Shown here: positions 1,873 through 62,290 of the stretch, piece by piece
Layout: every line of letters begins with the position of its first letter
Numbering within the stretch: position 1 is the first letter of the stretch
Assembly: GCF_904846225.1 (NCBI RefSeq)
Contig: NZ_CAJGZJ010000010.1
Coordinates: forward strand, 1 to 64,000
Direction: 5' to 3'
Length of the DNA stretch: 64,000 bases
Origin: Psychrobacter immobilis
Lineage (GTDB): Bacteria; Pseudomonadota; Gammaproteobacteria; Pseudomonadales; Moraxellaceae
Position numbers and translations under genes: made by a program
Notes under the pieces: model-generated
What the model was told of the DNA's origin: nothing
The model's database searches: none
What the model saw: only the letters and a program-made list of their open reading frames with translations

Positions 1873-2012
1873 CTATAGTCAGTGCAAAGTAGTATTGATA
1901 CCTTACGCACTGCTATTATCAATTTTTCTTGCTTGCTGTGCCTGCGCAGACAGAGGCGGCAAAAAATTGATAACAGCAGTACCGTCACATTTTTAAGGTG
2001 TTTTGGCTATAT
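1873..2012 (+). repeat. Intergenic hairpin repeat, copy 1
   Basis: Member of the repeat family found 11 times in this window. The conserved core reads GCTTGCTGTGCC, a 3-base spacer, then GCAGACAGAGGC. The arms at 1909-1927 and 1962-1980 pair over 19 bp with one mismatch. The outer ends are CTATAGTC-like on the left and, read from the opposite strand, TATATAGCC on the right. It lies between two minus-strand oxidoreductase genes. Confidence 0.9.
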
Positions 2013-2106
2013 AAAAACATTGACTCTTGCGGCTAAACCAAAAAAAGCCCATGAAATCATGAGCTTCTTTTATGCAATATCGAAACACTAAAGATTGCTT
2101 AAAACG

Positions 2107-3084
2107 TTAAGGCTTAAGCAATACTTTGCCTTTTTTGGCTGACTGTACTTGTCCAGAGACCGCGGTGGTGATGTCATCCAAACTATAAATGGCTTCAATC
2201 GGTAGTTTTAAATCGCCGTTGGTCGCGCGTTCTAGCAATTCATCAATCAGACGCTGTTTGTTTTCAACATCCATTTCTTGGCTGGTTTTACTGCCCCAGA
2301 AACCTTTGACAACAGCTTGCTTAAAGATGAGGCTGCCCGCGTCCAATGACATGGGTTTGCCTGACATGATACCAAATGAGACCAGCGTGCCATTGCTACC
2401 CAGTAGCGATAGCAGCTCATTACTCGACTCACCACCGACCGAGTCAACGGCAGCTGTTATCTTGTCATCGCCGATGATAGCGCGGACTTGGTCTTTCCAA
2501 TCGTCATCAGCGGTGACGACGTTGTTTTTGATGCCGAGCGCGGTCAGCTCTTCTACTGAGTCTTTGCTACGCACTAGGTTAATGGTTTTCACGCCGCGTG
2601 CCGATGCGAGCATGGCAAGCGTTTTACCCACTGCGCCGTTTGCCGCATTGTGAATGATCCATTGTCCACTATCCACTTCTAAGAATTCTAGCAGCATTAA
2701 GGCAGATAGCGGCATCGCAATCAGCTGCGCCGCCAGCTCATCTTCGATGGCATCAGGGATGACAAATACCATGCTGGCAGGGGCGACAAAATACTCTGCC
2801 CACGTTTCGTGTACACTGGCGCAAGCCACGCGCTGTCCGACACTCAGGTCTGTGACGTCATCGCCCACAGCATCGATAATGCCTAGCGCCTCACTACCAC
2901 CGATGGCTGGCAACTCAGGCTTGTAGCCATATTGACCACTGATCGTCAATAAATCATGGTTGTGAATGGGGGAGAGAATGGTTTTGATACGCACTTCATT
3001 GGCAGCAGGCTGCGGCATAGGACTGTCGCCAATGCTCAATACATCAGCAGGTTTACCAAAGCTTTTATGAATAGCACTACGCAT
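2107..3084 (-). CDS. MECR/ETR-like zinc-independent alcohol dehydrogenase family reductase
   Basis: 325-aa medium-chain dehydrogenase/reductase. The N-terminal GroES-like domain covers about 1-110 and the Rossmann domain carries NAANGAVGK (146-154), the form of glycine-rich motif seen in the 2-enoyl-thioester reductase (MECR/ETR) branch. Other visible landmarks are HNHDLL (41-46), GGSEALG (62-68) and the C-terminal GKVLLKP. It probably uses NADPH to reduce an activated double bond; the substrate cannot be told from sequence. Start ATG 3084 is preceded by AAGGAAATT, a good ribosome-binding site. It is separated from the AcuI-like gene by a hairpin repeat, so the two are probably transcribed independently. 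Confidence 0.8.
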   Translation of the reverse strand: MRSAIHKSFGKPADVLSIGDSPMPQPAANEVRIKTILSPIHNHDLLTISGQYGYKPELPAIGGSEALGIIDAVGDDVTDLSVGQRVACASVHETWAEYFVAPASMVFVIPDAIEDELAAQLIAMPLSALMLLEFLEVDSGQWIIHNAANGAVGKTLAMLASARGVKTINLVRSKDSVEELTALGIKNNVVTADDDWKDQVRAIIGDDKITAAVDSVGGESSNELLSLLGSNGTLVSFGIMSGKPMSLDAGSLIFKQAVVKGFWGSKTSQEMDVENKQRLIDELLERATNGDLKLPIEAIYSLDDITTAVSGQVQSAKKGKVLLKP

Positions 3085-3302
3085 ATGAATTTCCTTTATT
3101 TATTTTTTGATGGAATGATCGTACTTAACAGGTCGACTATTATTAATCAGTTATTATGAGTCGGTTATTATGAATAGATGTTTTGTATAAAAGCGCACAA
3201 TCAGGTCACCACAGTAACAAGTCAGCCTCCCTATTATCAGTACTTATTTGGTTAAATAAGGTTAGCGGTTGCTTACAATCGTGAAGTATCACTCATCTGG
3301 TT

Positions 3303-3917
3303 TTAATTATTATTAATCTGTGCTTCACTTAGATTTGACGGATCAATCACTGCAAACGTCTCGTTAACGAGATTGGTCAAGAGCGGATCACCTTTATCAT
3401 TGACACGGAATAAGCCGTATTGTGCATTTTCGAATGCCTCAGCATGACCTTCTTGAAAGAAAAAAGCATTGGTCGCAAGCTTGACCGAGCCGCTACGCAC
3501 ACGGTAATGAATAGCCATCTCATCAGCGGCTAAAGTGTCAGGCTGATAACGGTCAGCCAAGCGCACAAAACGCCCAACGTCATGCTTATCTAATGCAACG
3601 ATCACATAGCCATCCGCTGCTTTATCAAAGTCGCTCGCTTTTTCAAGCGTGTATAAAATATCACGCTCTAACGCGTAACTGAGCGTCATATAATCCCCTT
3701 GCATAAAACCGCGCGGGTCGACAGGGGCAAGTTGCAATAACACGGGTTCACCACTGGCAAGATGCGTTTCGTATTTTGCGACATTGATGGTCATTATGGC
3801 GATGATTATTATCAAAGCCAATAGCGCAACGCTGATAGTGACCATCCGTTTTTGCCACCATGGTAGCGGTTTGGCTAAGGGTTTTTGCGCTAGCAGTGGG
3901 TCGTTTATATTACTCAT
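3303..3917 (-). CDS. GDYXXLXY domain membrane-anchored protein
   Basis: 204 aa with one N-terminal transmembrane segment (about residues 26-46) and a periplasmic domain carrying the signature GDYMTLSY, which names the GDYXXLXY family. Its function is unknown. It is the last gene of a three-gene operon: its ATG overlaps the stop of the DUF4401 gene by four bases (ATGA), and an AAGGAG ribosome-binding site sits 8 bases upstream, so the two are probably translationally coupled. This protein, a DUF4401 protein and a DUF2157 protein commonly occur as a set, which suggests one envelope complex. Confidence 0.88.
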   Translation of the reverse strand: MSNINDPLLAQKPLAKPLPWWQKRMVTISVALLALIIIIAIMTINVAKYETHLASGEPVLLQLAPVDPRGFMQGDYMTLSYALERDILYTLEKASDFDKAADGYVIVALDKHDVGRFVRLADRYQPDTLAADEMAIHYRVRSGSVKLATNAFFFQEGHAEAFENAQYGLFRVNDKGDPLLTNLVNETFAVIDPSNLSEAQINNN

Positions 3918-5095
3918 GACAAGCGCTCCTTATCATTATCTACCAGTGCTTTTTCATTCCTTTTACTAATCCCAAAATAACGTTTAATCAGCATCCAGCG
4001 CATCAACAGCATGACGATACCGATGAGGAGCATCGAAGCGGACTTCAGTAGCAATGACGTATCAAGCTGATAATAATACCAAAAGATATAGCTCACTAAA
4101 GCGAATATACCGACGCCCAATAGGGTGCGCTGGCTATTAGACATGGCGATGATAATAATCAAACTGGTCACGAGTAATCCTGAGACATAAATCGACGTTA
4201 TACCAAGAACGAGGGTGGCACAGACCATGATAGCGCCATACTTTGAGAGCAATTTAACATCGTAGCGCCTCAGAATCAGATAGAGCGCATATAGGCTCGC
4301 CAATATTAACAGCCCCTGCGCGACGATATAATTATAACGAAACGCCTCGTCGCTATTAAAAAAATCATGACCATATTCGCCCGCAACCACATAAACTGAG
4401 AAGACAAGCAGTATCAGAGCACTGGCATAGGAGAGCGCTTGGCTGATATCAAAAGCGCCTGCCCGCCATTTAACGTTGACGCGTTGCAATATCGAATAAC
4501 GTTGCAAATTGGCCACAATGGTGATGAATGCCAGTAATCCCAAACTAATCTCGGACAGCTGATAATAACTGAGTAAATAAACCACACAGATCAGTGCTGT
4601 CATACTGCTTACTAGACGGTAGATAAAATTGGGCATGACGATCGTCATAAATAACTGTATCAGTAGCAAGATGATGATATTCACAGGCTGTTCAATCTCA
4701 TCAGCCAATAAAGCAAAGGCAATATAACCTTGACCCGCAACAGTAATCGCAAAGGCTAAGCTGTTCCAAAATGGGCTATGACGTAGATGCGCGTTATAAA
4801 ATAAATACCAGCCAATGACGCTCAATATGCCGCCAGTGATTAATAGTCCAGCGGCACTGTCAAAAATCTCAGTCTCAAATAATATTAACGTCAAAAACCC
4901 AATGAATAATAGACTGGCAAATATCCCGCTAAAACCAAAAAGTGCATTGATAAACCAAGGCGTATATTCTACAGATTCGGTCTCTTTTAACAGACCGCTG
5001 TTCACATATTGCTCGTCGATTAACCCGTGCTGTTGTAATAGCAAAAGACTATCATCTTGCTCATGATTGTTGGGGCTATTAAGGTTATGACTCAT
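3914..5095 (-). CDS. DUF4401 polytopic membrane protein
   Basis: 393 aa. After a polar N-terminal region of about 45 residues there are roughly ten to twelve hydrophobic transmembrane segments, ending in a basic cytoplasmic tail (KRYFGISKRNEK). Gene order, topology and length fit the DUF4401 family, which is found beside DUF2157 and GDYXXLXY proteins; no biochemical role is established. The start ATG 5095 lies inside the end of the DUF2157 gene (11-base overlap) and is preceded by GGGGAG. It overlaps the next gene by ATGA, so all three are expected to be made from one transcript. Confidence 0.85.
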   Translation of the reverse strand: MSHNLNSPNNHEQDDSLLLLQQHGLIDEQYVNSGLLKETESVEYTPWFINALFGFSGIFASLLFIGFLTLILFETEIFDSAAGLLITGGILSVIGWYLFYNAHLRHSPFWNSLAFAITVAGQGYIAFALLADEIEQPVNIIILLLIQLFMTIVMPNFIYRLVSSMTALICVVYLLSYYQLSEISLGLLAFITIVANLQRYSILQRVNVKWRAGAFDISQALSYASALILLVFSVYVVAGEYGHDFFNSDEAFRYNYIVAQGLLILASLYALYLILRRYDVKLLSKYGAIMVCATLVLGITSIYVSGLLVTSLIIIIAMSNSQRTLLGVGIFALVSYIFWYYYQLDTSLLLKSASMLLIGIVMLLMRWMLIKRYFGISKRNEKALVDNDKERLS

Positions 5096-6251
5096 TATCG
5101 CTCCCCTTGACTATAGTATGGGGCACATTAGCATGGGGCACATTGTTCTCGTTTTTCATACGGGCGACTTTGCGTAGCCACACAACCGCCGCTGAACTCA
5201 TGCCAATCACTATCAGCCCTAACAATAAGAAACCGCCAGCGTCAAAATTGCTCAGCAGTGATTTTCCTAAAATAAAGACAACAACCGCAATCACCGAGCC
5301 TGATAGGTAAGTCAACATCAGCAAATCAGTCGTACGCTTGCGAAAACGCCAATGCATAAACACACACCAACCTAGCCACAATAACGCGGCGACTAAGAAC
5401 AGCAGCATGTTTTTATTATCAAAAAAAGTGCTGATCGTTAGATAAGTGACGGTATAGGTACTGAGGAGAGCGACAACGTAAGTACTCCAATGCAGACTGG
5501 ATTTGGCGGCAGTGCTGGTGAGATTGAAGGTGTTGGATTGGCGATTGGTAGCAATATCAGCAGTGACGCTAGAAAGGCTTAAATCAGAGAGGGTTAAATT
5601 AGAGAATCTTAAATCAGAAAGCCCTGAATCACGTTTGTCTTCAAAGCAGAGCAGCCATAAGTAAAAAGCGACAAAATTAATGACAGTGATTGCCGTAAAT
5701 TGCCAAAAGTCTTGATATCCAAAGTTCGAAAAACTTGAGGTATTGACATAAAACAAAGTTACCGTATTTAGTAGACCCAACCACAATAACCAAAGCGCAG
5801 GGAAGCGTGCGATGATGACCCAAGGTGTAATCAATAACGCCCATGCAAAAAACAGCTGCCACGTGTCCGCACCCGTCTGATAAATTTGCCCAAGTAAAGC
5901 CAGTAAACTGCCAGTAATCACACTAGCGATGAGCAATAATAACTGGCGAATGAGCTGAAACCGTCGTCTGAAAGACAATGCCACATAAAGCGCGATAGTA
6001 ATGACCAGCGCCCCTTCTACCAACGCGAACTTACCCATTTTCCCCATGCTTTGCCAGTTATAGGCAATAAAAAACACCAGTGATAATACCAATGCGACCA
6101 CGCCGATAATGAGCAGCGCTTTATCAAAAAAGCTCAGCCACGTACGTCTGCTAGGGTAAACTTCTAGATGAGTGGCTGCTGCACCGGCGCGGGTAATGGG
6201 GAGAATACCGCGTTTCAGCAAATGCTCAATAGTGCGTCTTGACTGGCTCAT
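5085..6251 (-). CDS. DUF2157 polytopic membrane protein with a pentapeptide-like insert
   Basis: 388 aa. The soluble N-terminal region (1-40) includes LLKRGILP, typical of DUF2157. It is followed by many transmembrane segments and the family motif GQIYQTGADTWQLF (121-134). Between membrane segments a hydrophilic loop at about 203-250 holds four five-residue units, DSGLS DLRFS NLTLS DLSLS (208-227), coded by a 4 x 15-bp tandem repeat. The function is unknown; it heads the DUF2157-DUF4401-GDYXXLXY operon. The start ATG 6251 follows AGAGAGCG. DUF2157 proteins are usually described only as predicted membrane proteins. Confidence 0.87.
   Translation of the reverse strand: MSQSRRTIEHLLKRGILPITRAGAAATHLEVYPSRRTWLSFFDKALLIIGVVALVLSLVFFIAYNWQSMGKMGKFALVEGALVITIALYVALSFRRRFQLIRQLLLLIASVITGSLLALLGQIYQTGADTWQLFFAWALLITPWVIIARFPALWLLWLGLLNTVTLFYVNTSSFSNFGYQDFWQFTAITVINFVAFYLWLLCFEDKRDSGLSDLRFSNLTLSDLSLSSVTADIATNRQSNTFNLTSTAAKSSLHWSTYVVALLSTYTVTYLTISTFFDNKNMLLFLVAALLWLGWCVFMHWRFRKRTTDLLMLTYLSGSVIAVVVFILGKSLLSNFDAGGFLLLGLIVIGMSSAAVVWLRKVARMKNENNVPHANVPHTIVKGSDNES
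5571..5630. repeat. 4 x 15-bp in-frame tandem repeat within the DUF2157 gene
   Basis: Four diverged 15-bp units, 5571-5585, 5586-5600, 5601-5615 and 5616-5630, share the pattern AGARARNNTTAAATC. They encode four pentapeptides on the minus strand. Confidence 0.8.
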
Positions 6252-7125
6252 AGCACGCTCTCATTAAAAACAGTGTGAAGACTATCTTAGCTGTTTTCAT
6301 GAGGCAGTGATATCTATTATCAATTACCTGTGAGCGCTTCATAAACTTAACGCACCGTCTTACAAAAATAAATCAGCTGAAAAATAAAATAATTGGAGCG
6401 CTGTAAGACAGCTAAAGTTTTTGATCGAGAGCAAAGTATTTACAACAATATTGCATCTCAAAATCGGCTTAAAACTGACACCAAATGATAAGTTGTCAAC
6501 CACAGTTTTATAAGTGCAAGTTATGATTTTTTTAGACCGATTTTCTTGAAAGCCTTGAATTGACTTACTCGGCAATGATAACTAACAACTAAAAAGCAGC
6601 GATTAATAGTCAGCATACAGTTTTTTAATCAGCGGTATTATATTGCTGATGAAAGGCAATAAATAGGTATAAAAATTATAAAGTCATCAAGATTGTATTT
6701 GGTTTTTATCGGCCAAAATGGCTTTGTATGTTCCTTTCCCTCACCTGTTAGTAATAAAAAATTATTGACATTGGTATCAATTTTTATTACTAATGGTTGT
6801 CCAAAATGTTACTAATAGTTATGTAAAGCTATTGGAGCTAACACTACTGAATCTTGATTGTGAGTTTGCAACTCGATGGTTATAAGTCAATAATAGACTA
6901 TTAACTATCAACGATATAAAAATTGAATTTCGATTTGCAATCAGAGTAAGCGACTTGAAGCGTATTCAAGAAAATAACTTCAGTAGTGCCTCGATGCCTT
7001 ATCAACGATTTCCATGATGAGTAATCGGATAAGTAATCGATAGTGTCAATATACGGATATATTAAATCGAATCGCTAGCCATTAGTTGATCCGATCAGCC
7101 ACTTACCAGTCAGGATAGATATTAT
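6252..7125. other. 874-bp intergenic region upstream of oppA
   Basis: No credible gene: a 71-codon minus-strand frame at 6360-6575 has neither a recognisable product nor a good ribosome-binding site. The region is very A+T rich and separates the divergent DUF2157 and opp operons, so it should hold both promoters. A long imperfect palindrome sits at 6749-6792 and contains TTGACA (6765-6770). A 10-base inverted pair, CACTACTGAA near 6841-6850 and TTCAGTAGTG near 6978-6987, is also visible. No specific regulator site is recognised. Confidence 0.6.
6749..6792. promoter_or_regulatory. Long imperfect palindrome upstream of opp
   Basis: TAGTAATAAAAA (6749-6760) is the reverse complement of the right arm at 6781-6792 apart from minor offsets in the centre. 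TTGACA at 6765-6770, inside the palindrome, could be a -35 element. The site is about 330 bp upstream of oppA. It could be an operator or a transcription terminator-like hairpin; neither is proven. Confidence 0.4.
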
Positions 7126-8799
7126 ATGATGCGCACTCCTAATCACCTTTTGACGTCTGTTTTTTTGCCCACCTCTCTAGTACTTGCTATGTTTATGACA
7201 GGCTGTAGTGATAAGTCTGCAACGGATAGCCCTACCAGCAAATCCTCTGATATTGATCCAACGGTATTGGCTGACAAACAAGAATTGGTTGTTAATAACG
7301 CTGCCGAGCCAGAATCGCTGGATCCGCACAAAGTATCAGGCGTGCCGGAAGCGGGTATCGACCGTCAGATGTTTGAGGGTTTGACCAATACTGATGCGGA
7401 TGGCAAAACCATTCCGGGTATGGCGACCAGTTGGGAAAGTCCAGACAATAAAGTCTGGACGTTTAAACTGCGTGATGCCAAGTGGTCAAATGGCGATCCT
7501 GTGACAGCAGAAGATTTCGCTTATAGCCTCCGCCGTCTGGTCGATCCAGAGACCGCGTCCCCTTATTCGAGCTATCTAGTCGATGCCAAAATCGTAGGCG
7601 CTGAGCAAATCGTAGAAGGTAAAGCGGGTATCGACACCCTTGGCGTCAAAGCAATCGATGACAAGACGCTGCAAGTGACCTTATCAGAGCCGGTGCCTTA
7701 TTTTCCAGACATGATGATTCATAACTCGGTCAAACCCGTCAATAAAAAGAACGTCGAAGAATTTGGTGACAAATGGACTGATCCTGCCAATATCGTGGTC
7801 AATGGCCCTTACAAAGTCAGCAAATGGCAAGTCAATGACCAAATCGTCTTGACCCGCAATCCTGAATACTATGATGATGCCAATACCAAAATCGATACCG
7901 TTACGATGCTCGCCATTCCTTCTAGCACCACGGATGTGGCACGCTATCAGGCAGGCGAGATTGACATGACCTACAATGAAATCCCGACTGAGCAATTTGC
8001 GTCTCTCAAAGAGCAGCTTGGTGATGAGCTAACCGTTTCTCCTTATCTGTGTACGTATTATTATGAGTTTAACAACGTCAAACCGCCATTTAATGATGTC
8101 AAAGTACGTCGTGCGCTCGCCTTGGCATTAGATCGTGACACTGTAGTAGATAAAGTCATCGGTCAAGGGCAAACCGCCGCTTATCAGCTGACGCCAGTCG
8201 CGACTAATGGCGGTGTCAAAAATACGCCAGAATGGTCAACGTGGGACAAAGAAAAACGTATCAAAGAAGCCAAAAAGCTGCTGAATGAAGCAGGCTATAA
8301 CGAGCAAAATCCACTGACCTTTGAGCTGCTATACAACACCAATGACAGCCATAAGAAAACAGCACTCGCCGTTGCCTCGTTATGGAAACAAGCGCTTGGC
8401 TTCGTCGATGTCAGCTTGATCAATAAAGAATGGAAAACCTACCTCGATACTCGCCGTAATGGTAACTATCAAATCGCGCGCGCTGGCTGGTGTGGTGATT
8501 ACAACGAAGCATCAACCTTCTTGAACATCTTAAAAACAGGCAATAGTAACAACCACGGCAAATACACCAATGCCAACTTTGACAGCCTAATGGCACAAAC
8601 ACTAAAAGCAGGTACGACGCCTGAGCAGCGTGTCGATTTATACAACAAAGCCGAGGCTCAGCTTGATCAAGACATGCCTTTGTTAAATGTATATCACTAT
8701 GTTAGCCCTCGTTTAATCAAGCCTTATGTCATTGGCTTCCCAATGAAAGATGCCTTGAACAACTGGCAGGCAAAAGATTTGTCCATTGCCAAACACTGA
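7126..8799 (+). CDS. oppA: Oligopeptide-binding lipoprotein OppA
   Basis: 557-aa periplasmic solute-binding protein of the SBP_bac_5 family, the peptide receptor of the Opp ABC importer. The N-terminus is a lipoprotein signal with lipobox MTGC (Cys27), so it is probably membrane-anchored. NNAAEPESLDPHKVSG (about 57-72), the WTFKLRDAKWSNGDPVTAEDF stretch and the C-terminal half with GWCGDYNEASTF match OppA/MppA-type proteins. Tandem ATGs occur at 7126 and 7129, with AGGAT about 9 bases before the first. It heads oppABCDF; a hairpin lies in the 157-bp gap to oppB, which would favour extra OppA over the membrane subunits. Confidence 0.93.
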   Translation: MMRTPNHLLTSVFLPTSLVLAMFMTGCSDKSATDSPTSKSSDIDPTVLADKQELVVNNAAEPESLDPHKVSGVPEAGIDRQMFEGLTNTDADGKTIPGMATSWESPDNKVWTFKLRDAKWSNGDPVTAEDFAYSLRRLVDPETASPYSSYLVDAKIVGAEQIVEGKAGIDTLGVKAIDDKTLQVTLSEPVPYFPDMMIHNSVKPVNKKNVEEFGDKWTDPANIVVNGPYKVSKWQVNDQIVLTRNPEYYDDANTKIDTVTMLAIPSSTTDVARYQAGEIDMTYNEIPTEQFASLKEQLGDELTVSPYLCTYYYEFNNVKPPFNDVKVRRALALALDRDTVVDKVIGQGQTAAYQLTPVATNGGVKNTPEWSTWDKEKRIKEAKKLLNEAGYNEQNPLTFELLYNTNDSHKKTALAVASLWKQALGFVDVSLINKEWKTYLDTRRNGNYQIARAGWCGDYNEASTFLNILKTGNSNNHGKYTNANFDSLMAQTLKAGTTPEQRVDLYNKAEAQLDQDMPLLNVYHYVSPRLIKPYVIGFPMKDALNNWQAKDLSIAKH

Positions 8800-8817
8800 T
8801 AGATCAAGTTTTTGACA

Positions 8818-8862
8818 AGCGAGTGCGGTGCAGGAGGCTTCGGCTGATTCATCGCACTCGCT
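8818..8862 (+). other. Hairpin between oppA and oppB
   Basis: AGCGAGTGCG (8818-8827) pairs perfectly with CGCACTCGCT (8853-8862), and GGC/GCC pairs extend inside the loop. No T run follows, so it is more likely an mRNA-stabilising or attenuating hairpin than a full terminator. Confidence 0.6.
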
Positions 8863-8956
8863 GCTATTGCGAGTAAGCTATTACTGCGTGTTACATCTGT
8901 TGTATCCTTCCCGCTTGAATCAAGCTTAGGAGGGGGCACTTCCATCAAGAGGTATT

Positions 8957-13475: not shown

Positions 13476-13616
13476 ATATAGTGATCGAAAAGTTAAATTG
13501 ATACATCAGATACTGCTGGTATAAAGCTTCCTCGCTTGCTGTGCCTAAGCAGACAGAGGCTTCAAAAAATTCATCCCAGCAGTACTGTAGCTAATCTATT
13601 GTTCTTTGACTATAGT
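13476..13616 (+). repeat. Intergenic hairpin repeat, copy 2
   Basis: The core GCTTGCTGTGCC with GCAGACAGAGGC is conserved. The arms TACTGCTGG (13511-13519) and CCAGCAGTA (13576-13584) pair. The outer ends are ATATAGTGATCG on the left and TTGACTATAG on the right. It lies upstream of the racemase gene, in a 445-bp gap that otherwise holds no visible gene. Confidence 0.85.
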
Positions 13617-14642: not shown

Positions 14643-14708
14643 CTGATATAGTCAATTTTAAATAAAATACGGTCAAATATTATCACGCGCTTTTCAGATA
14701 TTTTGACT
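14643..14708 (+). repeat. Left-end fragment of the hairpin repeat
   Basis: GATATAGTCAATT, then AAATAAAATACGGTCAAATATTATCACGCGC (split across 14646-14690), matches the left outer segment of complete copies such as the one at 25585. The hairpin core is missing. It directly abuts complete copy 3, as if a second copy had inserted into or replaced part of an older one. Confidence 0.6.
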
Positions 14709-14856
14709 ATATAGTCAGTTCGAAATAAAATCGATACGTTAATAGCTACGTACTACTGATATAGATTTTTCTAGCGTGCTGTTCGCAAGCGTGACAGAGG
14801 CTGCAAAAAATCTATACCAGCAGCACTGTACCGGATTTAAAGTGAATCGACTATAT
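14709..14856 (+). repeat. Intergenic hairpin repeat, copy 3
   Basis: The outer ends are ATAGTCAGTTCG and TCGACTATATC. The core has drifted (GTGCTGTTCGCAAGCGTGACAG) but still folds. The arms TACTGATATAGATTTTT and AAAAAATCTATACCAGCA pair with two G-T-compatible differences. It lies between the convergent racemase and MATE genes. Confidence 0.82.
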
Positions 14857-24065: not shown

Positions 24066-24204
24066 GCTGCTCGCTATTTTTGTTAGCTGTCTGTGTTGCC
24101 TGTCTCTTAAAGCTGAGTAGCAGTTTTGCAAAATTCAGGCTTTACGCCTTTGCAAGATTCCTTTGCATGCTAAAGTCTGTTTGTCTTTTAAATATATATA
24201 CTCA

Positions 24205-24340
24205 AATTATCTTAAAAAAATTATGGTACTAATGATATCAGTTTTTTGCAGCCTCTGTCTGCAACGGCACAGCAAGCAAGAAAAACTGATATCAGTAGTG
24301 CATGATGTATCGGCATTACTTTGCTCAGGCTATATTTTTA
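24205..24340 (-). repeat. Intergenic hairpin repeat, copy 4
   Basis: Reverse orientation (GCCTCTGTCTGC then GGCACAGCAAGC). The arms ACTAATGATATCAG (24228-24241) and CTGATATCAGTAGT (24286-24299) pair with one mismatch; the arm sequence differs from most copies yet stays complementary. The outer ends are degenerate. It lies between rsuA and the DsbC-like gene. Confidence 0.82.
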
Positions 24341-25531: not shown

Positions 25532-25584
25532 CTAGGGCGTGTCCTCATTTTTATTACCATTTTTAAAATGAGAACACGCCCTAG
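25532..25584. repeat. 53-bp palindrome with IS5-like ends
   Basis: CTAGGGCGTGTCCTCATTTT (25532-25551) is almost the exact reverse complement of the right arm ending CACGCCCTAG at 25584. The same CTAGGGCGTGTYNTCA end occurs on the 176-bp element at 46742-46917. It looks like two transposon ends placed back to back with no interior. It abuts repeat copy 5 and may also act as a weak terminator for the upstream gene. Confidence 0.7.
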
Positions 25585-25719
25585 CCTAAATAAGAAAGGG
25601 TCAAATATTATCGCGTACTACTGTGATAAATTTTTCTTGCTTGCTGTGCCGTTGCAGACAGAGGCTTCGCAAAATTTATTCCAGTAGCACTGTACCTTTT
25701 TATAGAGGATCCGTTATAG
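25585..25719 (+). repeat. Intergenic hairpin repeat, copy 5
   Basis: The arms starting CTACTGTGATAAATTTT (25618 onward) and ending in CCAGTAG (25687) pair, with a core of GCTTGCTGTGCC/GCAGACAGAGGC. The left outer end lacks the TATAGTCAGT segment and begins directly after the CTAG of the neighbouring palindrome. Confidence 0.85.
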
Positions 25720-25726
25720 ATTCAGC

Positions 25727-25772
25727 AAAAAAAACCGCTTTATGAACATGGCTCATAAAACGGTTTTTTATT
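25727..25772 (-). terminator. Bidirectional-looking terminator near the DUF2939 gene
   Basis: An A-run followed by CCG.TTTATGA (25727-25745) pairs with TCATAAAACGGTTTTTT (25753-25769). T runs follow on both strands. It lies about 50 bp beyond the stop of the minus-strand DUF2939 gene. Confidence 0.8.
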
Positions 25773-28104: not shown

Positions 28105-28251
28105 TAAAGTCGATCCACTATAAAGTAGATAAAGTGCTACTGGGGTAATTTTTGCGCCGCCTCTGTCTGCGAAGGCACAGCAAGCAAGGAAAATTTATCT
28201 CAGTAGCGCGTGATAATAGTGGTATCTCTTTTATCTAGGACTGACTATATC
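28105..28251 (-). repeat. Intergenic hairpin repeat, copy 6
   Basis: 147 bp, reverse orientation, complete with both outer ends (TAAAGTCGATCCACTATAAAG and CTAGGACTGACTATATC). The arms span 28136-28207. It is almost identical, in inverted orientation, to copy 7 at 33095-33241. Confidence 0.92.
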
Positions 28252-32976: not shown

Positions 32977-33039
32977 GATATAGTCAAAATATCCTAAAAA
33001 CCCTATGGTAATGCTGATATTAATTTTCACTGACTATAG
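32977..33039. repeat. Core-less derivative of the hairpin repeat
   Basis: 63 bp bounded by GATATAGTCA and TGACTATAG, the outer ends of the hairpin repeat, with part of one arm (GGTAATGCTGATATTAATTTT split across 33007-33027) but no GCTTGCTGTGCC core. It lies 55 bp from complete copy 7. Confidence 0.6.
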
Positions 33040-33094: not shown

Positions 33095-33241
33095 GATATA
33101 GTCAGTCCTAGATAAAAGAGATACCACTATTACCACGCGCTACTGAGATAAATTTTCCTTGCTTGCTGTGCCTTCGCAGACAGAGGCGGCGCAAAAATTA
33201 TCCCAGTAGCACTGTATCTACTTTATAGTGGATCGACTTTA
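33095..33241 (+). repeat. Intergenic hairpin repeat, copy 7
   Basis: 147 bp, complete. The outer ends are GATATAGTCAGTCCTAG and TATAGTGGATCGACTTTA. The arms GCTACTGAGATAA and TTATCCCAGTAGC pair with one mismatch around the core. It differs from copy 6 at only about four positions. Confidence 0.92.
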
Positions 33242-34884: not shown

Positions 34885-35028
34885 TATATAGTCAATCCAC
34901 TATAAAATATATATAGCAATACAGGCGTAAATTTTACGTAGCCTCTGTCTGCGCAGGCACAGCAAGCAAGGAACATATACGCCTGTATTGCTATATTTGT
35001 CTCTCTTTTACTGAGGACTGACGATATC
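34885..35028 (-). repeat. Intergenic hairpin repeat, copy 8 (divergent arms)
   Basis: The arms at 34911-34929 and 34978-34996 are a perfect 19-bp inverted repeat of sequence ATATAGCAATACAGGCGTA, quite unlike the arms of other copies, although the core (GCCTCTGTCTGC, GGCACAGCAAGC) and outer ends (TATAGTCAATCCACTATAAA, GAGGACTGACGATATC) are conserved. This is the clearest case of kept pairing with changed sequence. Confidence 0.92.
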
Positions 35029-45121: not shown

Positions 45122-45261
45122 TGTAGTCAGTGAAAAGTAGTATCGATACATCACGCACTGCTGAAATCAATTTTCTTGCTGGCTGTTGTGTCTGCGCAGA
45201 CAGAGGCGGCAAAAATTGATTTCAGCATTACTGTAGTGCTTTTAAGAGTTTTTGACTATAG
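45122..45261 (+). repeat. Intergenic hairpin repeat, copy 9
   Basis: It starts at the base after the cbpM stop codon. The arms TGCTGAAATCAATTTT (45159-45174) and AAAATTGATTTCAGCA (45212-45227) are a perfect 16-bp inverted repeat. The outer ends are TGTAGTCAGTG and TTTGACTATAG. Confidence 0.9.
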
Positions 45262-46917: not shown

Positions 46918-47044
46918 ATTCTAAAAGAGATGTGCAGTATAACTGTGTTTTTAAAGCATGCTTATGATGCTATGTACCGTTTTGTTAAGCTCAAAATTTT
47001 TAATGAAACCGCAATTTACACCAGTGCTATCTGATTATTGATGT

Positions 47045-47071
47045 ATCGATTTAACTTTTCACTGACTATAT
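47045..47071. repeat. Outer-end fragment of the hairpin repeat
   Basis: TTTTCACTGACTATATTATC matches one outer end of the repeat family; no core or arms are present. Confidence 0.4.
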
Positions 47072-47131
47072 TATCAAATGGTCATTGACTCAATCATATT
47101 TCAAGAATAGACGGGCAAATTTTGGACACAT

Positions 47132-54677: not shown

Positions 54678-54695
54678 GTCAGAATATTCAATGTT

Positions 54696-55380: not shown

Positions 55381-55549
55381 GGGATTCTCGGATAATGGAT
55401 AGGTAAGGAGTAATAATTGATGATGGGTATTGTAACGAGAAAAGAGTGAGTTTGCAGCATCGTATTAATTCGATAGGCAAAAAACCTAGGCTACATGCTA
55501 ATTTTGTAGTGTAAGATTAGTTTATAAAAGCATAGCCTATGAGATCATC

Positions 55550-56800
55550 ATGAATACAACGGAAAAAGGCGATAAGTTTGAGGAAGTGATATATGAATTA
55601 TTTCTAAAAGATATTAAGGATAATAAAACTACAATAAACTCTAGATCCCATATCAAAGCATTCAGAAAGAAAAAATATTACTCGAGGTACAGAGAAAAAT
55701 ATATCGAGTTTGATATAGCTATAGAGGTGTATCAAGACGTTGAGCTACCTAATATGTCCAATTTATTACTAATAGAATGTAAAGACTACAAAGGTGCAGT
55801 AGGTATAGATCAACTAGGTAAGTTTCTAGATGATATTAGAGATATTTCAGAAGGCGAGCTGACTTATAAAATCCGCCCAATAATGGCAATTAGCTCTAGT
55901 CTTGCTGAAGGAGCTTTCAATAAAGCAAAAAATAGAGGTGTGGGACTCGTAAAGTTAAACAGTGAAAAAACGCTGACACATATACTAAATCGTAAATATA
56001 GATATCAAGATGTGGATAATAAATACGATGTGGAAGGTATCTTTGTTAAAGGAGAGCTTCCTAATTTAAGTAATCTCTCTTATATGATGTATGCACAAAA
56101 TCAATGGTTTTTTGGTATAGAAGACTACATTAAATTCTTGATAGGACAACCATTTAATAACTCTAATCAAAAAGTAGATTTCATTCCTAAAGTGGGCCTA
56201 GAAAATTTAGCTGAAAGCTTATTGATTGAGATTGACTATTCGGATGGTTCAGTCAATTTAGATGAAATAGCGCTACTTGATGCTTTATCTCATATAAAGA
56301 TTATCAAAGATATAACAGATCACGACCACCGATTACTTGGAAAAATAGATTTTATTCAGCAAGAAATTTATTTGTATAAACAGAGCGATGATAACTTGCA
56401 TAGAAATAGGTTTACATTAGCGCACGAGCTTTCTCATATATTGTTAGATCATGGTAAATACTTGATAAAAGATGTTTTTTTGACTGAAGACCTGAATGGA
56501 GAAAGTAGAAATAAAAACGAATTTATTAAACAGTTAGAGTTTCAAGCAAATTATTTGGCGGCTTGTATTCTTATGCCTAAGACGTATTTTTTAGAACGTT
56601 TTCTAGAGATTTATAACAAATTAAGTCTAACGCCTAGGGGAAAAGTATTTCTATACAATGATAAGCAAGAATGTAATAAAATTATGGTGAATAACGTACT
56701 GGTAGGACTCTCTAGATATTTTAATGTATCAAAAACAGCAGTTGAAATCAGGCTAAAAGACTTAGACATACTGTTTGATGAATCCAACTTTACAAAATAA
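55550..56800 (+). CDS. PD-(D/E)XK nuclease-like / ImmA-IrrE metallopeptidase fusion
   Basis: 416 aa. The N-terminal part (about 1-150) looks like an Mrr-type restriction endonuclease fold: GDKFEEVIYELF (7-18), Asp55 in FDIAIEV, Glu76 and Lys78 in LIECKDY and Gln88 just after. The C-terminal part (about 230-345) is an ImmA/IrrE (DUF955) metallopeptidase: FTLAHELSHILLDH with HExxH at 292-296, then LEFQANYLAACILMP, where Glu330 would be the third zinc ligand. The last 30 residues (FNVSKTAVEIRLKDLDIL) are helical, as in IrrE-type proteins. The DNA is A+T rich and the gene sits alone beside xerD. A defence or stress role is inferred, not shown. Confidence 0.75.
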   Translation: MNTTEKGDKFEEVIYELFLKDIKDNKTTINSRSHIKAFRKKKYYSRYREKYIEFDIAIEVYQDVELPNMSNLLLIECKDYKGAVGIDQLGKFLDDIRDISEGELTYKIRPIMAISSSLAEGAFNKAKNRGVGLVKLNSEKTLTHILNRKYRYQDVDNKYDVEGIFVKGELPNLSNLSYMMYAQNQWFFGIEDYIKFLIGQPFNNSNQKVDFIPKVGLENLAESLLIEIDYSDGSVNLDEIALLDALSHIKIIKDITDHDHRLLGKIDFIQQEIYLYKQSDDNLHRNRFTLAHELSHILLDHGKYLIKDVFLTEDLNGESRNKNEFIKQLEFQANYLAACILMPKTYFLERFLEIYNKLSLTPRGKVFLYNDKQECNKIMVNNVLVGLSRYFNVSKTAVEIRLKDLDILFDESNFTK

Positions 56801-56805
56801 AAACC

Positions 56806-57744
56806 CTAACCTCTCGGATGATGCTCAGCATGCAATTTCTGCAATCTTGCCGTCGCCACATGCGTATAGATTTGCGTCGTTGATAAGTCGCTATGTCCAA
56901 GCAAGAGCTGTACGCTACGCAAGTCTGCGCCATGATTGAGCAAATGCGTGGCAAAAGCATGACGTAGCGTGTGCGGTGATAACTCTTTATCAATACTGGC
57001 AATTTGAGCATATTTCTTCAGCAAATACCAAAAGTTCTGCCGCGTCATATAGCCGCCTTGCGCGGTCAAAAACACCGCTTGGCAATTACCTGATTTTAGA
57101 TGCGCAATCAAATCGCCACGCGCATGCGTTAGATAATCTTCCAGCGCCTCTGACGCATATTCCCCTAGTGGCACCAATCGCGTTTTATTACCTTTACCCG
57201 TGATTTGTAACCAGCCAGAATTCAGATTCACTTGCTCAAGTGACAGATTAATCAACTCGCTCACACGCAGACCGCAGGCATAGAGTACCTCGAGCATGGC
57301 TTTATCACGCAGTCCAAGCGACGTGCTGGTATCAGGCGCGGTAAGTAATTTATCAACATCCGCCTCGGCCAAATCCTTTGGTAGTGGACGACCAAGTTTT
57401 GGGCTTTTGATACGCTCACAGGGATTGTCCTCACGCAGATTACTGGCGATCATCCATAGATAGAACTGGCGCAGGCTGGAGAGCATACGTGCTTGAGTGC
57501 GCGGTGTTTTTTCATCTTGGGAGAGGAGAGAGAGACAGTGCTGCACATCGTCAGGCTGCCAGCGTGTCAGGGCGATAGGATTGGTCAACTCACAAGAACG
57601 CAGATCACGGACATAAGCATTGCGAGTGCGCGTTGCCAAACCACGAGCCAGCATTGCTTGACGAAACTCAGTCATATAAGTTGGCTCATCATCGACTGCC
57701 AATGCTTTAGGCTGCCTTTGCTGCACGGCACGATCACGGCTCAT
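56806..57744 (-). CDS. xerD: Site-specific tyrosine recombinase XerD
   Basis: 312 aa. The core-binding domain covers about 20-115, then the catalytic domain carries Arg in ACGLRVSEL, Lys in GKGNKTRLVPLG, His/Arg in SPHTLRHAFATHLLNHGAD, His in LLGHSDLSTTQIYTH and the nucleophile Tyr in IYTH. The C-terminal QKLHAEHHPRG matches XerD rather than XerC. XerCD resolve chromosome dimers at dif. An N-terminal extension of about 18 polar residues is present. It ends 5 bp from the convergent nuclease-peptidase gene, with no terminator between. Confidence 0.93.
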   Translation of the reverse strand: MSRDRAVQQRQPKALAVDDEPTYMTEFRQAMLARGLATRTRNAYVRDLRSCELTNPIALTRWQPDDVQHCLSLLSQDEKTPRTQARMLSSLRQFYLWMIASNLREDNPCERIKSPKLGRPLPKDLAEADVDKLLTAPDTSTSLGLRDKAMLEVLYACGLRVSELINLSLEQVNLNSGWLQITGKGNKTRLVPLGEYASEALEDYLTHARGDLIAHLKSGNCQAVFLTAQGGYMTRQNFWYLLKKYAQIASIDKELSPHTLRHAFATHLLNHGADLRSVQLLLGHSDLSTTQIYTHVATARLQKLHAEHHPRG

Positions 57745-57815
57745 AAGACAAGACTCAGTAAGTGATTAAAGTAAAGCATACCTCTAAGATTTATAATAAA
57801 CCAATGTCCGAAAGT

Positions 57816-58160
57816 TTACGCGCTTTTCTTTTTTACCAAATAACGATAAAGCGTCACGCTAGTAGCCGTGGCATCATCGCTATCGATGGTGATTTCATCA
57901 GGGTCGATATCTAAGCTCACACTTTCAGCCAGTGTTTCTTGACCCAATAGCTCGTGACCCAAATGACGACAAAAATTAGGAATGTCACGAGTAGTGGCGG
58001 GATCAGTCGCGAGTATTTCAATCACATCACCGCCATCCGCTTGACGAATGGTGCGATGTAGCATCATCAATGGCTCAGGACAGATTAATCCTTGGGTGTC
58101 TAAATGATGATTGATAGCCGTTTGCGTGATAGAAGTGGTCATATGAGTAGTTTGCATCAA
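57816..58160 (-). CDS. tusA: TusA-like sulfurtransferase
   Basis: About 114 aa. The TusA/SirA domain has [21 protein letters not shown] (the sulfur-carrying Cys in CPxP) and [26 protein letters not shown]. TusA relays sulfur from IscS for 2-thiouridine in tRNA. The C-terminal acidic segment ([15 protein letters not shown]) followed by YRYLVKKK is longer than in E. coli. The start is uncertain: ATG 58157 (first ATG, after a TTG) or ATG 58142. It is followed by xerD on the same strand, 71 bp away. Confidence 0.9.
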
Positions 58161-58239
58161 TAAAGTAAGTGTAAAATAAAAGGATGAAGTCTAAAAAGCG
58201 TTCTGCTGGTATAAATGTTCTTCGCGTCGTTTATGCCTC

Positions 58240-58710
58240 TCAGGCAATCTCAGGTTCTTCTTCTATTTCTAAATAGTCAAAAAATCGCTTAAAAGTAACT
58301 TTGAATAAAAACGCCACGCCAAGCCAACAGGACAACCCTAACCATGCGGTATCGGCAAATAATAAGCCACCAATCAATATGATGGTCGATACGCCAATAC
58401 TCATGGCAATCATCGATGGTTGGTTTAAACGATAGCGATAAATAACCAAAGCATCATAGAGGGTAATGGGAATCGTAAGGGTAACTAAGGCATAAGGCAA
58501 ATTATAAAACAATTGATAAAGCAGCTGATTGTCATGAAATGCTTTAATACTGGCAATCGTGCCAAAGACCACAAAGGCGAGGATAGCAGCATAAATCAGA
58601 TAAATTGCTATTTGATTTGCACGCTGAGCGCCTTTGATACGAGCGATGGCAAGCGGCGCAAAACCATGCTGCGAATTATGTTGCAAAACTTGATCTGAGA
58701 CAGTGGTCAT
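58240..58710 (-). CDS. Four-helix hypothetical membrane protein
   Basis: About 156 aa. A polar N-terminus is followed by about four transmembrane segments (roughly 36-56, 68-90, 100-117, 121-140) and a short acidic tail (EIEEEPEIA). I recognise no family. The first in-frame codon of the long frame is TTG; ATG 58710 is taken as the start. Base composition matches the neighbours, so it does not look foreign. It lies between ruvX and tusA on the same strand. Confidence 0.68.
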   Translation of the reverse strand: MTTVSDQVLQHNSQHGFAPLAIARIKGAQRANQIAIYLIYAAILAFVVFGTIASIKAFHDNQLLYQLFYNLPYALVTLTIPITLYDALVIYRYRLNQPSMIAMSIGVSTIILIGGLLFADTAWLGLSCWLGVAFLFKVTFKRFFDYLEIEEEPEIA

Positions 58711-58766
58711 AGTAATCAATCATGTATCCGTTTAGAGTTACGATATATCAGAGAGCCGCTGTGTTC

Positions 58767-58789
58767 TTTTTATAGTGCATCGACTATAG
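58767..58789. repeat. Outer-end fragment of the hairpin repeat
   Basis: CTTTTTATAGTGCATCGACTATAG resembles the right outer end of complete copies (TATAGTGGATCGACTTTA); no core is present. Confidence 0.45.
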
Positions 58790-58818
58790 CATTGCTTTAA
58801 AACGACCTAAGCACTCAA

Positions 58819-59349
58819 CTAGTCTGCTTTGATAGCATCAATGGCGAGACTGCTAGTAGGATCTGCAAAATAGGTCGACATCAAGATGCAGGCAGAGATG
58901 TCATCAATCGGGGCGCGCTCATGTTTAATCCAGCCGTTTTCCCACGCGATTTCTCGTGCGGCGACTGAGGTTAAACGCTCGTCACATAAACAAACAGTCA
59001 CTGGCAAATGCTGTTCCATGACTCTATGCGCTAGGCGACGGGCAAATTTGTGCGCACGCTTAGAGAGCATGGAGCTGCTACCATCCATATTCAGGGGTAA
59101 ACCGACGACCACTTTTGTGACACCCCAAACTTTGATAATGCCCAGTAGGTTGTCCCAATCAGGTTGGCCATTATCCATCGCTAAGATGTCAAAAGCCCGC
59201 GCTGTTTCGGTAATGGTATTACCCAGCGCCATGCCCATCTTTTTGACGCCATAATCTAGCGCCAAGATCAGATGTGGTTTAACGACAAGCTCAGCGATGC
59301 CATTGTCCACCGCATCCTCGCTCTCTGTTGTAAGCGTGTGATCTACCAT
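58819..59349 (-). CDS. ruvX: Holliday-junction resolvase-like protein RuvX/YqgF
   Basis: 176 aa, RNase H-like fold. LALDYGVKKMGMALGN, VVVGLPLNMDG and CLCDERLTSVAA carry the acidic active-site positions (Asp in DYG, Glu in DERLT, Asp in APIDDISACILM). The family processes 16S rRNA 5' ends and may cut junctions. An N-terminal extension of about 20 residues is present. AGAGGA lies 9 bases before ATG 59349. It lies directly downstream of algH, the conserved order. Confidence 0.93.
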   Translation of the reverse strand: MVDHTLTTESEDAVDNGIAELVVKPHLILALDYGVKKMGMALGNTITETARAFDILAMDNGQPDWDNLLGIIKVWGVTKVVVGLPLNMDGSSSMLSKRAHKFARRLAHRVMEQHLPVTVCLCDERLTSVAAREIAWENGWIKHERAPIDDISACILMSTYFADPTSSLAIDAIKAD

Positions 59350-59399
59350 TGTAATGACTATCCTCTATAAGGGTTTCTGTATTTGTAGCGCGTACGATA

Positions 59400-59963
59400 T
59401 CATGCGTGCCCGATATCGCTGCTAAGATAGTCAAAATTAACCCCAATCTTGTCAGCCGCAATTTGCCAGCGTTCTTCGAAGGGCGTATCAAACAATAAAT
59501 TTAAATCGGCTGGACACACCAACCAGTCGCCATTATTAAGTTCTTGCTCTAGCTGTTTTTTATTCCAACTGGCATGTCCCAAGCAGAGCTGATAATGACC
59601 CACACCTTGACCGGCCGCGATACGTTTGAGGATATCTTGGCTCGTCGTAATACAGACGTTTTCTGAAATGGCAAAAGAAGAGGCCCATTCTGGCTGGCCT
59701 GTGTGCAATACAAAGCCAACCTCAGGATACATCGGGCCGCCCTCTAGTGCCAAGTCCTCCATTACCTGTGAGTCAGTCACCTCAATATCCAAATCTTCTA
59801 GGAGTTTACCGACGCGAGCTTGCCCTAGCGGACGATTGACCATGAGACCTAATGCCCCATGTTTATCATGACGACAAATATAGATCAAAGCCTGTTCAAA
59901 CCTTGGGTCTGATAGCTCTGGCGCTGCGATTAAGAAGTGATGGGTCAAATTGGCTTTAGACAT
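59400..59963 (-). CDS. algH: YqgE/AlgH family protein
   Basis: About 187 aa. [43 protein letters not shown] is the family's signature N-terminus (spread over the first 45 residues), with [15 protein letters not shown] and [15 protein letters not shown] later. The molecular function is unsettled; AlgH was named for alginate regulation in Pseudomonas. ATG 59963 (MSKANLTHH) is chosen since the upstream GTG extension (60014) is not family-like. It forms an operon with ruvX, 50 bp downstream. Confidence 0.9.
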
Positions 59964-60064
59964 AGAGAAAAATACAACCTGATAATCAAGGTGAATTAAG
60001 GCGATAAGTACCACTATATGGCGATAATGAGTAGAAAATCAACTAAAGCAAATATCTATCAGCG

Positions 60065-60195
60065 ATTAGGGAGTTTCTTACTGCTACTGAGATAAATGTT
60101 GCGCCGCCTCTATCTGCGCAGGCACAGCCAGCAAGGAAAATTTATCTCAATAGCGCGTGACAATATTTGACCTTCTTTCATTTAGGACTGACTAA
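60065..60195 (-). repeat. Intergenic hairpin repeat, copy 10
   Basis: The arms GCTACTGAGATAAAT (60083-60097) and ATTTATCTCAATAGC (60140-60154) pair with one mismatch around GCCTCTATCTGC/GGCACAGCCAGC. The right end (TTAGGACTGACTA) is intact but the left outer end is not recognisable. It lies between recN and algH. Confidence 0.85.
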
Positions 60196-60229
60196 ATGTG
60201 TCCTCGATAACGATATGCTCAACCGATTT

Positions 60230-61909
60230 TTATTTAACATCGGTTAACAAACTACGGGCATGGTCACGAGTAACGTCAGTAATAGTCACGCCGCCTGACA
60301 TACGTGCCAGCTCATCGACTTGCGCCGTATCGGTCAATATCAACAGCTCGCTTTCGGTCTGCTCCTGATGGTGCTTCTGTACCAAGATATGCTGATGTGC
60401 TTGTGCCGCTACTTGTGCTTGGTGCGTAATGGCCAGTAATTGCTGCGTTTGTCCAAGCTCGCGTAACAGCTCACCGACCACTTGCGCAGTACCGCCACTG
60501 ATACCGACATCCACCTCATCAAATACTAGCATAGGTTTGGCCGCATTATTATCAGCATTGGTTGCTTGTAGTACTTGCATCACCAGCGCCATGCGTGACA
60601 ACTCGCCACCTGATGCGATTTTATGTAGTGGCTGCATCGGCATGCCCACATTGGCACTAAACAATAAGTCAATATCAAAGCAACCTTGCGCATTATACAG
60701 GCTCGTTTCTGCTTTTTTGGTAAAGACGAATTCACAGCGCGCATTGGGCAAGGCAAGAGGTTGTAATTGTTTGATGAGCTGTTCGGTGACTACTGGCGCC
60801 GCTTTTGAGCGCGCCTTATTCAATTGTGTGGCAAATGCTACATACTCTTGCCACGCTTGCTCGATTTGTACCGCCATCGCGTCACTGCTTGGCTCGTTCT
60901 CTAACTGCTCTAGTTGTTCTTGCCAGCCTTTTGCTTCGGTCACCAAATCACCAGCTGGCAAGTTATGCTTGCGTGATAATCGATGGCCTAGGCTGATTAA
61001 GCTGTCTAATGATTGCAGACGCTCAGGATCGGGCAGTTGCTGCTCTGCATAATCTGACAGTAATCCGGTCACCTCAGTGATTTGCTGTTGCGCTAAATGC
61101 AGTTGTTCAGAGGCTTGCTCAAAGGTTTGGCTGACACCTACTTGATGATCACAGAGCTTGATTGCTTGTCCTAGTAGCGTCATGACATCTGGCTCATCGG
61201 TATCATTGTCGAGCAGATGCAAACCATGACTGGCCTCCGTCATCAGCGCTTCGATGTTCGACAGCTCTTCGTGTTCTGATTCGACATCTGCATAGTTGAC
61301 GGCGAGCAGTGGCGTAATGTCTGCCAGTTGATTTTGCAACAGTAGGATACGATCTTGACGCTGCGCTTCACGGCTGGCAATGTCATCAGCCCGGCGTTTT
61401 AGCTGTTGATACTGCTGATAGCTACTGGCTGTTTGTGTGGCAAGTGGGGTTATCTGCGCCATCTCATCAAGCCATTGCACCACAAACTGTGGTTTAAGCA
61501 GTGCTTGCTGAGCATGTTGGCTATGAATATTGACCAGCAATGCCCCTAAGCCTTTTAGTTCAGCCAAACTGACAGGCGTTCCATTTAACCACGCTTTAGA
61601 GCGACCAGTATTGCTCAATTGACGACGAATCAGCACTTCTGGTTCTTCTAGCGGCCGCTCATTTCTTGCGAACCAATCAGCGACGACGGGGTTATTTTCT
61701 ACCTCAAACTGCGCATAAATATCTGCATGCGCCGCCCCGTGTCTGACCATCGCACTGTCCGCGCGTTCGCCCACACATAAGGATAGCGCATCAAGTAATA
61801 ACGACTTTCCTGCGCCCGTTTCACCAGTGATGACATTAAAGCCAGCCGCAACGTTCAGCTCGTGCTGAGCGATCAACGCAAACTGATGTAAAGTGAGTGA
61901 TACTAGCAT
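60230..61909 (-). CDS. recN: DNA repair protein RecN
   Basis: About 559 aa SMC-like ATPase. N-terminal LVSLTLHQFALIAQHELN and Walker A GETGAGKSLLLDAL (about 30-43) are followed by a coiled-coil middle (about 160-360). The C-terminal half has the signature SGGELSRMALVMQVL, Walker B PMLVFDEVDVGISG and the D/H-loop LAITHQAQVAAQAHQH. RecN organises double-strand break repair. ATG 61909 follows GAGAGG, so TTG 61912 is not used. It is usually LexA-controlled; I could not identify a clear SOS box upstream. Confidence 0.95.
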   Translation of the reverse strand: MLVSLTLHQFALIAQHELNVAAGFNVITGETGAGKSLLLDALSLCVGERADSAMVRHGAAHADIYAQFEVENNPVVADWFARNERPLEEPEVLIRRQLSNTGRSKAWLNGTPVSLAELKGLGALLVNIHSQHAQQALLKPQFVVQWLDEMAQITPLATQTASSYQQYQQLKRRADDIASREAQRQDRILLLQNQLADITPLLAVNYADVESEHEELSNIEALMTEASHGLHLLDNDTDEPDVMTLLGQAIKLCDHQVGVSQTFEQASEQLHLAQQQITEVTGLLSDYAEQQLPDPERLQSLDSLISLGHRLSRKHNLPAGDLVTEAKGWQEQLEQLENEPSSDAMAVQIEQAWQEYVAFATQLNKARSKAAPVVTEQLIKQLQPLALPNARCEFVFTKKAETSLYNAQGCFDIDLLFSANVGMPMQPLHKIASGGELSRMALVMQVLQATNADNNAAKPMLVFDEVDVGISGGTAQVVGELLRELGQTQQLLAITHQAQVAAQAHQHILVQKHHQEQTESELLILTDTAQVDELARMSGGVTITDVTRDHARSLLTDVK

Positions 61910-62141
61910 CAACGCCTCTCATGACAGACAATGAACCTCACCTATTAGGCTAGGAGGTCATATCTAAAATAGGATGTATAAAGAAATGAAACGGTTCAGT
62001 TACTCGTACTAATAAATAAATGAGGTTGGCAAATATTATGGTGTTAAATACGTTTAAATACAAATAGTAAAGACAATGAATCCTATAAATTGATTCAACA
62101 CGTCCCAAATAAAACCATTAAAAACTGACGGTTAATGGATA

Positions 62142-62290
62142 CTATAGTCAGGTCAATATAGAAAAGAGACAACGGGGCTGGGATGAATTTTTTGTTGCCT
62201 CTGTCTGCGCAGGCACAGCAAGCAAGAAAAATTTACCCCAGTCACGCAGGGTAGTATCGTGTATCCATTTTATTCAGTATCGACTATATC
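62142..62290 (-). repeat. Intergenic hairpin repeat, copy 11
   Basis: The outer ends CTATAGTCAGG and TATCGACTATATC are intact. The arms CTGGGATGAATTTTT (62178 onward) and AAAAATTTACCCCAG (ending 62241) pair with G-T-type differences around the core. It lies in the 845-bp gap between divergent recN and ppnP. Confidence 0.88.

Follow-up and report, generated by a model that had tools for sequence, protein, structure and literature searches.

Miniature inverted-repeat transposable elements (MITEs) are usually viewed as paired ends with a neutral filling. Here we describe a repeat family in a 64,000-nucleotide stretch of Psychrobacter immobilis DNA (contig NZ_CAJGZJ010000010.1, positions 1 to 64,000; hereafter the window), whose short elements carry an inner hairpin with a nearly invariant core while its arms vary. 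The element is a MITE of the insertion sequence (IS) type IS630 and represents, as far as the literature searched shows, a new family, with no Psychrobacter MITE family described among the matches listed in the open-licence PMC literature. Going by the excerpts of the source at hand, its closest analogue is the Correia element (CREE/NEMIS) of Neisseria, which is mostly 104–108 or 153–157 bp long, has inverted-repeat ends and a conserved core, often inserts at TA, and folds, once transcribed, into a stem-loop bound by RNase III (PMC2649163). Small size, inverted-repeat ends, conserved core, TA insertion and a stem-loop are common to both elements, whereas the Correia hairpin, as described in those excerpts, is formed by the terminal repeats and that of Psychrobacter by an inner, covarying stem; moreover, the Correia hosts belong to a different class of bacteria. 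Membership in the Correia family was rejected because the CREE core end motifs given in the excerpts, CCGGTACGG and TCAGGACAA, are essentially missing, occurring in 0 and 1 of 278 Psychrobacter fragments. The 107-bp RUP repeat of Streptococcus pneumoniae likewise has ends resembling a resident IS630 element, IS630-Spn1, but the excerpted text describes no inner covarying stem or invariant core (PMC3049150), both of which the Psychrobacter element has. REP/BIME sequences with their RAYT transposases are likewise high-copy intergenic hairpins, but their ends differ. In addition, the window gave no Rfam match at gathering level, and one other copy gave four matches far below the gathering scores (E 0.12–2.7), so that a known Rfam family was rejected. 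The novelty is the strand-specific, covarying interior.

A covariance model (R1), built from 57 copies and scanned over the window, the genome and its relatives, returned 11 full-length matches of 111–159 bits in the window, recovering all eleven elements at the places named in the original prediction. Pattern scans and a repeat finder concurred. The best match clear of these elements scored 31.6 bits, and the other 17 window matches either reflected these palindromes as read from the opposite strand or were weak (≤31.6 bits), the weak ones including partial copies at 32979–33038 and 46979–47076. That the repeats are not due to chance was evident from the whole genome (3.34 Mb, 63 contigs), which contains 172 core matches with up to two mismatches compared to none for the reversed pattern, along with at least 150 covariance-model matches. 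About 30 bp at each end of the element correspond to an IS630 terminal repeat, and the interior of about 75 bp comprises the stem, 18–21 bp long, and the core. When the sequences were compared, the IS left end TATAGTCAATCCAGAATAAAAGAGATACAA matched the end of MITE family A, TATAGTCAGTCCTAGATAAAAGAGATACAA, and several other Psychrobacter genomes have IS ends of this form, TATAGTC...GATACA. Apart from these shared terminal ~30 bp, IS and MITE differ: the former carries a transposase and, at all 15 IS loci checked (13 distinct places), lacks the core that defines the latter. The transposase is encoded in two overlapping frames, matching HTH_Tnp_IS630 (PF01710) and DDE_3 (PF13358), with NF033545 also matched. 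PF13358 gave five matches at four places in the window's own genome, representing IS630-family genes, and a related transposase was found in 41 of 60 genomes of the genus at E ≤ 1e-30.

Comparison of related genomes revealed an exact empty site. Locus L174 reads ...CTCC TA GCAG..., whereas the filled locus L190 reads ...CTCC TA[TAGTC...GACTA]TA GCAG..., the insertion having occurred at a single TA that was thereby duplicated. A second pair, L015 and L089, is consistent with TA duplication, and for 46 copies at least one relative has both flanks with no copy found between them. The IS630 ends and the TA duplication establish what had been offered as one of several options, a MITE-like element, and the short length, high copy number and absence of coding capacity (the last judged from length alone) are further traits of IS630-type MITEs. 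Judging from the shared termini, the copies are likely moved by the resident IS630-family transposases.

It had been claimed that the two arms change together, and several comparisons agree on this point. In 141 of 200 copies, an arm was more complementary to its own partner than to arms taken from neighbouring copies; 78 of the 278 fragments had too few neighbours for this comparison. In an alignment of 57 copies (A1), 87.5% of the cells were paired compared to 82.6% after shuffling, and cells changed on both sides numbered 111, as against 47.7 in shuffled (sd 7.5) and 19–36 in slid-partner versions, although such raw counts are inflated by shared descent. Double changes occurred in 11 of the 12 pairs of the main stem helix. 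A weaker measure counts the pairs at which at least one double change is seen: there were 14, compared to 10.9 after shuffling; 33 of 500 shuffles reached 14, and one slid-partner version had 16. Among the 113 closest copy pairs, 95 two-sided pair changes were counted where 53.9 were expected and the maximum of 5000 permutations was 77; 56 of the 95 were Watson–Crick in both copies. On trees of 243 copies in families A to D, built without the stem columns and without the four inverted copies and 31 fragments not assigned to a family (a part of which are chance matches from outside the genus), partners changed on the same branch 112 times, compared to 46 expected from non-partner columns. Observed and expected values were 42 and 16 for family A, 21 and 13 for B, 48 and 15 for C, and 1 and 2 for D, the excess amounting to about four standard deviations in A and C; in every family, some of 2000 permutations reached the observed value. 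Beside the 112 two-sided changes stood 669 one-sided ones (498 pair-breaking, 123 pair-restoring and 48 neither), meaning that most stem changes are unpaired. According to these data, arm changes paired beyond chance are confirmed, carried by families A and C, for which paired changes exceed what phylogeny would give, whereas those of B and D may be no more than phylogeny gives. The broader proposal that structure is selected or continually regenerated is supported by several of these tests. The accompanying statement that each arm has its own matching partner was too strong: copy 9 pairs perfectly, as does the 19-nt arm of copy 8, but the arms of copies 7 and 1 contain one A·C each and copy 4 one C·T.

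The stem changes also differ between strands. Among the pair-breaking changes on the trees, 217 were wobbles on the strand opposite GCTTGCTGTGCC and 100 were wobbles on the GCTTGCTGTGCC strand itself, with ratios of 65:27, 51:34, 82:34 and 19:5 in the four families. The same substitution classes were balanced in the outer arms (509 to 521), and the stem skew differed from this control with p = 3e-9 (Fisher). RNA folding pointed the same way: of 243 copies, 180 folded more stably as the complement of the GCTTGCTGTGCC strand and 62 less stably, with mean energies of -30.6 and -27.6 kcal/mol, respectively, and an average advantage of the opposite strand in all four families; unrelated flanks showed no strand difference (p = 0.68). 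These data favour the structured-RNA option of the original prediction, with an RNA structure of one strand as the source of the wobble skew.

A related genome, G122 (one contig of 2,650,701 bases), has undergone a burst of the element, with at least 150 matches, 137 of the best 150 lying within seven changes of one reference. At stem pair +3 these copies carry C-G (37), C·A (84), T-A (16) and T·G (0), and at pair +5 A-T (35), A·C (72), G-C (28) and G·T (2). Read on the complement, both pairs are thus G-C, G·U or A-U and almost never A·C, and a sequence with both pairs in their commonest state has a folding energy of -35.4 kcal/mol as the complement, compared to -23.5 for the core strand. Template correction of C·A would likewise never yield T·G, and therefore the burst alone cannot separate selection from arm copying; it is the genus-wide wobble bias that favours selection. 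Another genome, G158, has a copy set of its own with the same core and different arms (30 of 150 listed copies were read). Eleven G122 loci (L318, L347, L352, L355, L391, L393, L399, L411 and L414–L416) show length changes of CAACA type in their left outer arms; these are found with more than one stem version and probably arose from slippage.

With somewhat more confidence than doubt, we read the element as a MITE with IS630 ends, likely moved by the IS, whose arms are likely kept by selection for a hairpin RNA of the strand opposite GCTTGCTGTGCC. This strand would be transcribed, and selection would act on an RNA of the form 5'-stem-GCAGCCTCTGTCTGCGTAGGCACAGCAAGCAAG-stem-3', with G·U intermediates allowing the arms to drift jointly between subfamilies around an unchanging loop. 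If Correia elements are a guide, RNase III or a different RNA-binding protein would likely recognize the double-stranded stem in transcripts that cross the element. Some paired and loop-inverting changes probably stem from replication, when one arm is occasionally copied onto its partner. Any function past that of a folded RNA of one strand is our inference. A number of observations weigh against this reading. The wobble skew comes mainly from A-T (and mismatched-consensus) pairs, at 141 to 49, compared to 76 to 51 for G-C pairs, and because of this we lowered our confidence; in family B it is carried by two pairs. The skew is smaller when every stem transition is included (305 to 234), and counts of distinct pairs and types stand at 65 to 45. 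The inner core hairpin is unbiased, with 13 opposite-strand and 17 same-strand wobbles in 1482 cells. Of the 11 window copies, only 7 fold more stably on the opposite strand (the segment used for copy 7 included outer ends). Families B and D lack a clear paired excess, and the double changes are not transition-rich (48 transitions and 39 transversions), contrary to a pure wobble route. In the G122 burst, a third mismatch (+12, C·A) persists in 135 of 137 copies. The core singleton test, which speaks for a conserved core with one singleton in 33 core sites compared to 27 in 105 other sites, is biased, as only the 150 best-scoring matches were listed. Furthermore, genomes G033 and G018 carry copies yet have no IS630 match at E ≤ 1e-30, and tandem copies show no orientation bias to genes (60 compared to 49, p = 0.34). 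A mutation bias confined to the stem may also give rise to the wobble skew.

A rival explanation, which we hold to be rather unlikely, is that the arms are paired mainly by mutation: in replication, one arm would serve as template for its partner (template switch or quasi-palindrome correction), which repairs mismatches and occasionally inverts the loop. In 4 of 247 family-assigned copies, L009 and L248 from the window's own genome and L039 and L054 from others, the core is flipped relative to the outer arms while the stem is preserved. The combination of compensatory change and loop inversion is described as extremely rare and the strongest possible support for template switching (PMC8794818). 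A separate case, in which the core seemed to be inverted in place between L160 and L248, was discarded, since relative to its flanks the core points the same way at both loci. Transversions are as common in double changes as in single pair-breaking ones (39 of 87 compared to 181 of 498, p = 0.15), two pairs of the G122 burst occur in both of their matched forms as well as in half-matched ones, with at least two outer backgrounds represented, and in family C the lengths of a T-run and an A-run vary together in 48 of the 50 parsable copies (of 102). However, arm copying predicts equal numbers of both wobble types rather than 217 to 100, the +12 mismatch is matched in only two of the 137 burst copies, and founder copies spread by transposition could produce the burst pattern. 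Because of the inverted cores and the transversion share in double changes, we keep arm copying as a contributor. The arm conversion initially suggested may also play a part, in view of the four inverted cores and the matched two-pair states of one burst.

Quite improbable is the view that the pairing reflects shared descent only, a few subfamilies with matching arms having been amplified with nothing maintaining them now: it would accommodate the separate arms of the G122 and G158 bursts, the preponderance of one-sided over same-branch two-sided changes and the behaviour of families B and D, but not the co-changes above non-partner columns in A and C or the excess of two-sided changes in close copy pairs. 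We also regard it as improbable that the core is a double-stranded protein-binding site with the arms serving as cruciform or spacer, since a cruciform constrains both strands equally and predicts no wobble bias, even though the near-invariant core does show dyad symmetry (CTGT...ACAG). It is scarcely credible that a Y1 transposase (RAYT or IS200) acts on the hairpin as a single-strand substrate, in the manner of REP sequences. Y1_Tnp genes are present in seven of nine genomes searched, but the copy-rich G013 and G033 lack them, the exact core was found at 3 of 13 Y1 loci, each time on one side of the gene, and the element's ends and TA duplication are of IS630 type. RAYT/REP membership was therefore rejected, no cognate Y1 transposase flanked by the repeat having been found in these nine genomes.

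The nine window copies that have both ends measure 138–146 bp, and both core 12-mers are exact in eight of the eleven, being variant in copies 3, 9 and 10 (14709, 45122 and 60065). Copy 1 (1874–2011, +; 156.3 bits) has the ends TATAGTC and GGCTATA and a stem at 1909–1927/1962–1980 around the core, consisting of 18 Watson–Crick pairs and its single A·C. Copy 2 (13477–13614, +; 140.7 bits) is of the family D type. Copy 3 (14710–14855, +; 119.8 bits) has its stem at 14750–14770/14806–14826, in which three pairs are G·U on the opposite strand only, and is immediately preceded by a lone left end (14647–14700, +; end-pattern match 14647–14668) of repeat family D10. Copy 4 lies at 24197–24334 (−; 142.4 bits). 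For copy 5 (25569–25738, +; 118.6 bits) the bounds are those of the covariance model, as its outer ends are degraded and no clear end was found. Copy 6 (28105–28249, −) scores 155.3 bits, and copy 7 (33097–33241, +; 158.9 bits) has the ends TATAGTC and GACTTTA. The partial copy at 32979–33038 (−; 30.1 bits) is a 60-bp deletion derivative with both TATAGTC ends, lacking the core and one arm. Copy 8 (34887–35026, −; 136.1 bits) has divergent arms forming a perfect 19-bp run, and copy 9 (45122–45260, +; 125.5 bits) a perfect 16-bp stem. Copy 10 (60037–60202, −; 111 bits), again with model bounds, has one degraded end, and copy 11 (62143–62288, −; 154.5 bits) is of the family B type. Locus L049 (core at 1501) has a perfect, unrelated 15-bp stem, GTGTGCCTGCAATAA, without clear TATAGTC ends. 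At the contig start (window 1–90), the 10-mer CGCAAATGAA occurs in tandem copies.

The element is nearly confined to the genus Psychrobacter. Named database records containing the core are nearly all from this genus, R1 matches under stricter filters were obtained in 40 of 149 genomes drawn from the family (39 from the same genus and one from another), and plasmid records gave four weak matches, three in Psychrobacter and one in Acinetobacter. Of the 243 copies, 193 could be placed against called open reading frames (ORFs), the other 50 having no called gene on one side. Four of those placed lie within an ORF and 15 far from any, while the 174 classified copies comprise 45 between convergent genes, 20 between divergent genes and 60 + 49 in tandem arrangements. 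In L263 (1379–1408 and 2323–2340), an IS630 element seemingly sits inside an inverted repeat followed by a T-run, possibly a terminator; together with the excess of convergent sites, this insertion hints at targeting of 3' ends. No bias of element strand was found between the replichore halves of G122 (p = 0.11, with the origin assumed at coordinate 1), a weak bias being possible. At least 26 candidate orthologous copy pairs were found but proved of limited value: in many, different subfamilies had inserted separately into one intergenic site; at least one of the candidates, L072/L079, is a chance match outside the genus, and two pairs, among the matches listed, have more than 90% element identity and few stem changes. 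At two intergenic sites, one at window 60037–60202 and L107 and the other at window 24177–24340 and L255/L256, the subfamily of the resident copy differs from species to species, as though insertion sites were reused.

Taken together, we tentatively propose, with clearly less than even confidence, a transposon family that carries an RNA gene in place of a protein gene. A structured RNA of one strand, its loop invariant, would be all that the MITE has as payload, and individual Psychrobacter species would burst with stem versions of their own, kept folded through G·U intermediates and at times by arm copying. The G122 burst offers a natural test bed for whether compensatory changes arise stepwise via G·U under selection or by template switching, as 137 near-identical copies in one complete genome hold all three wobble-route states of two stem pairs. 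In Psychrobacter, the filling of this MITE is its most conserved part and resembles a folded RNA of one strand; a selfish repeat may thus carry a working RNA.

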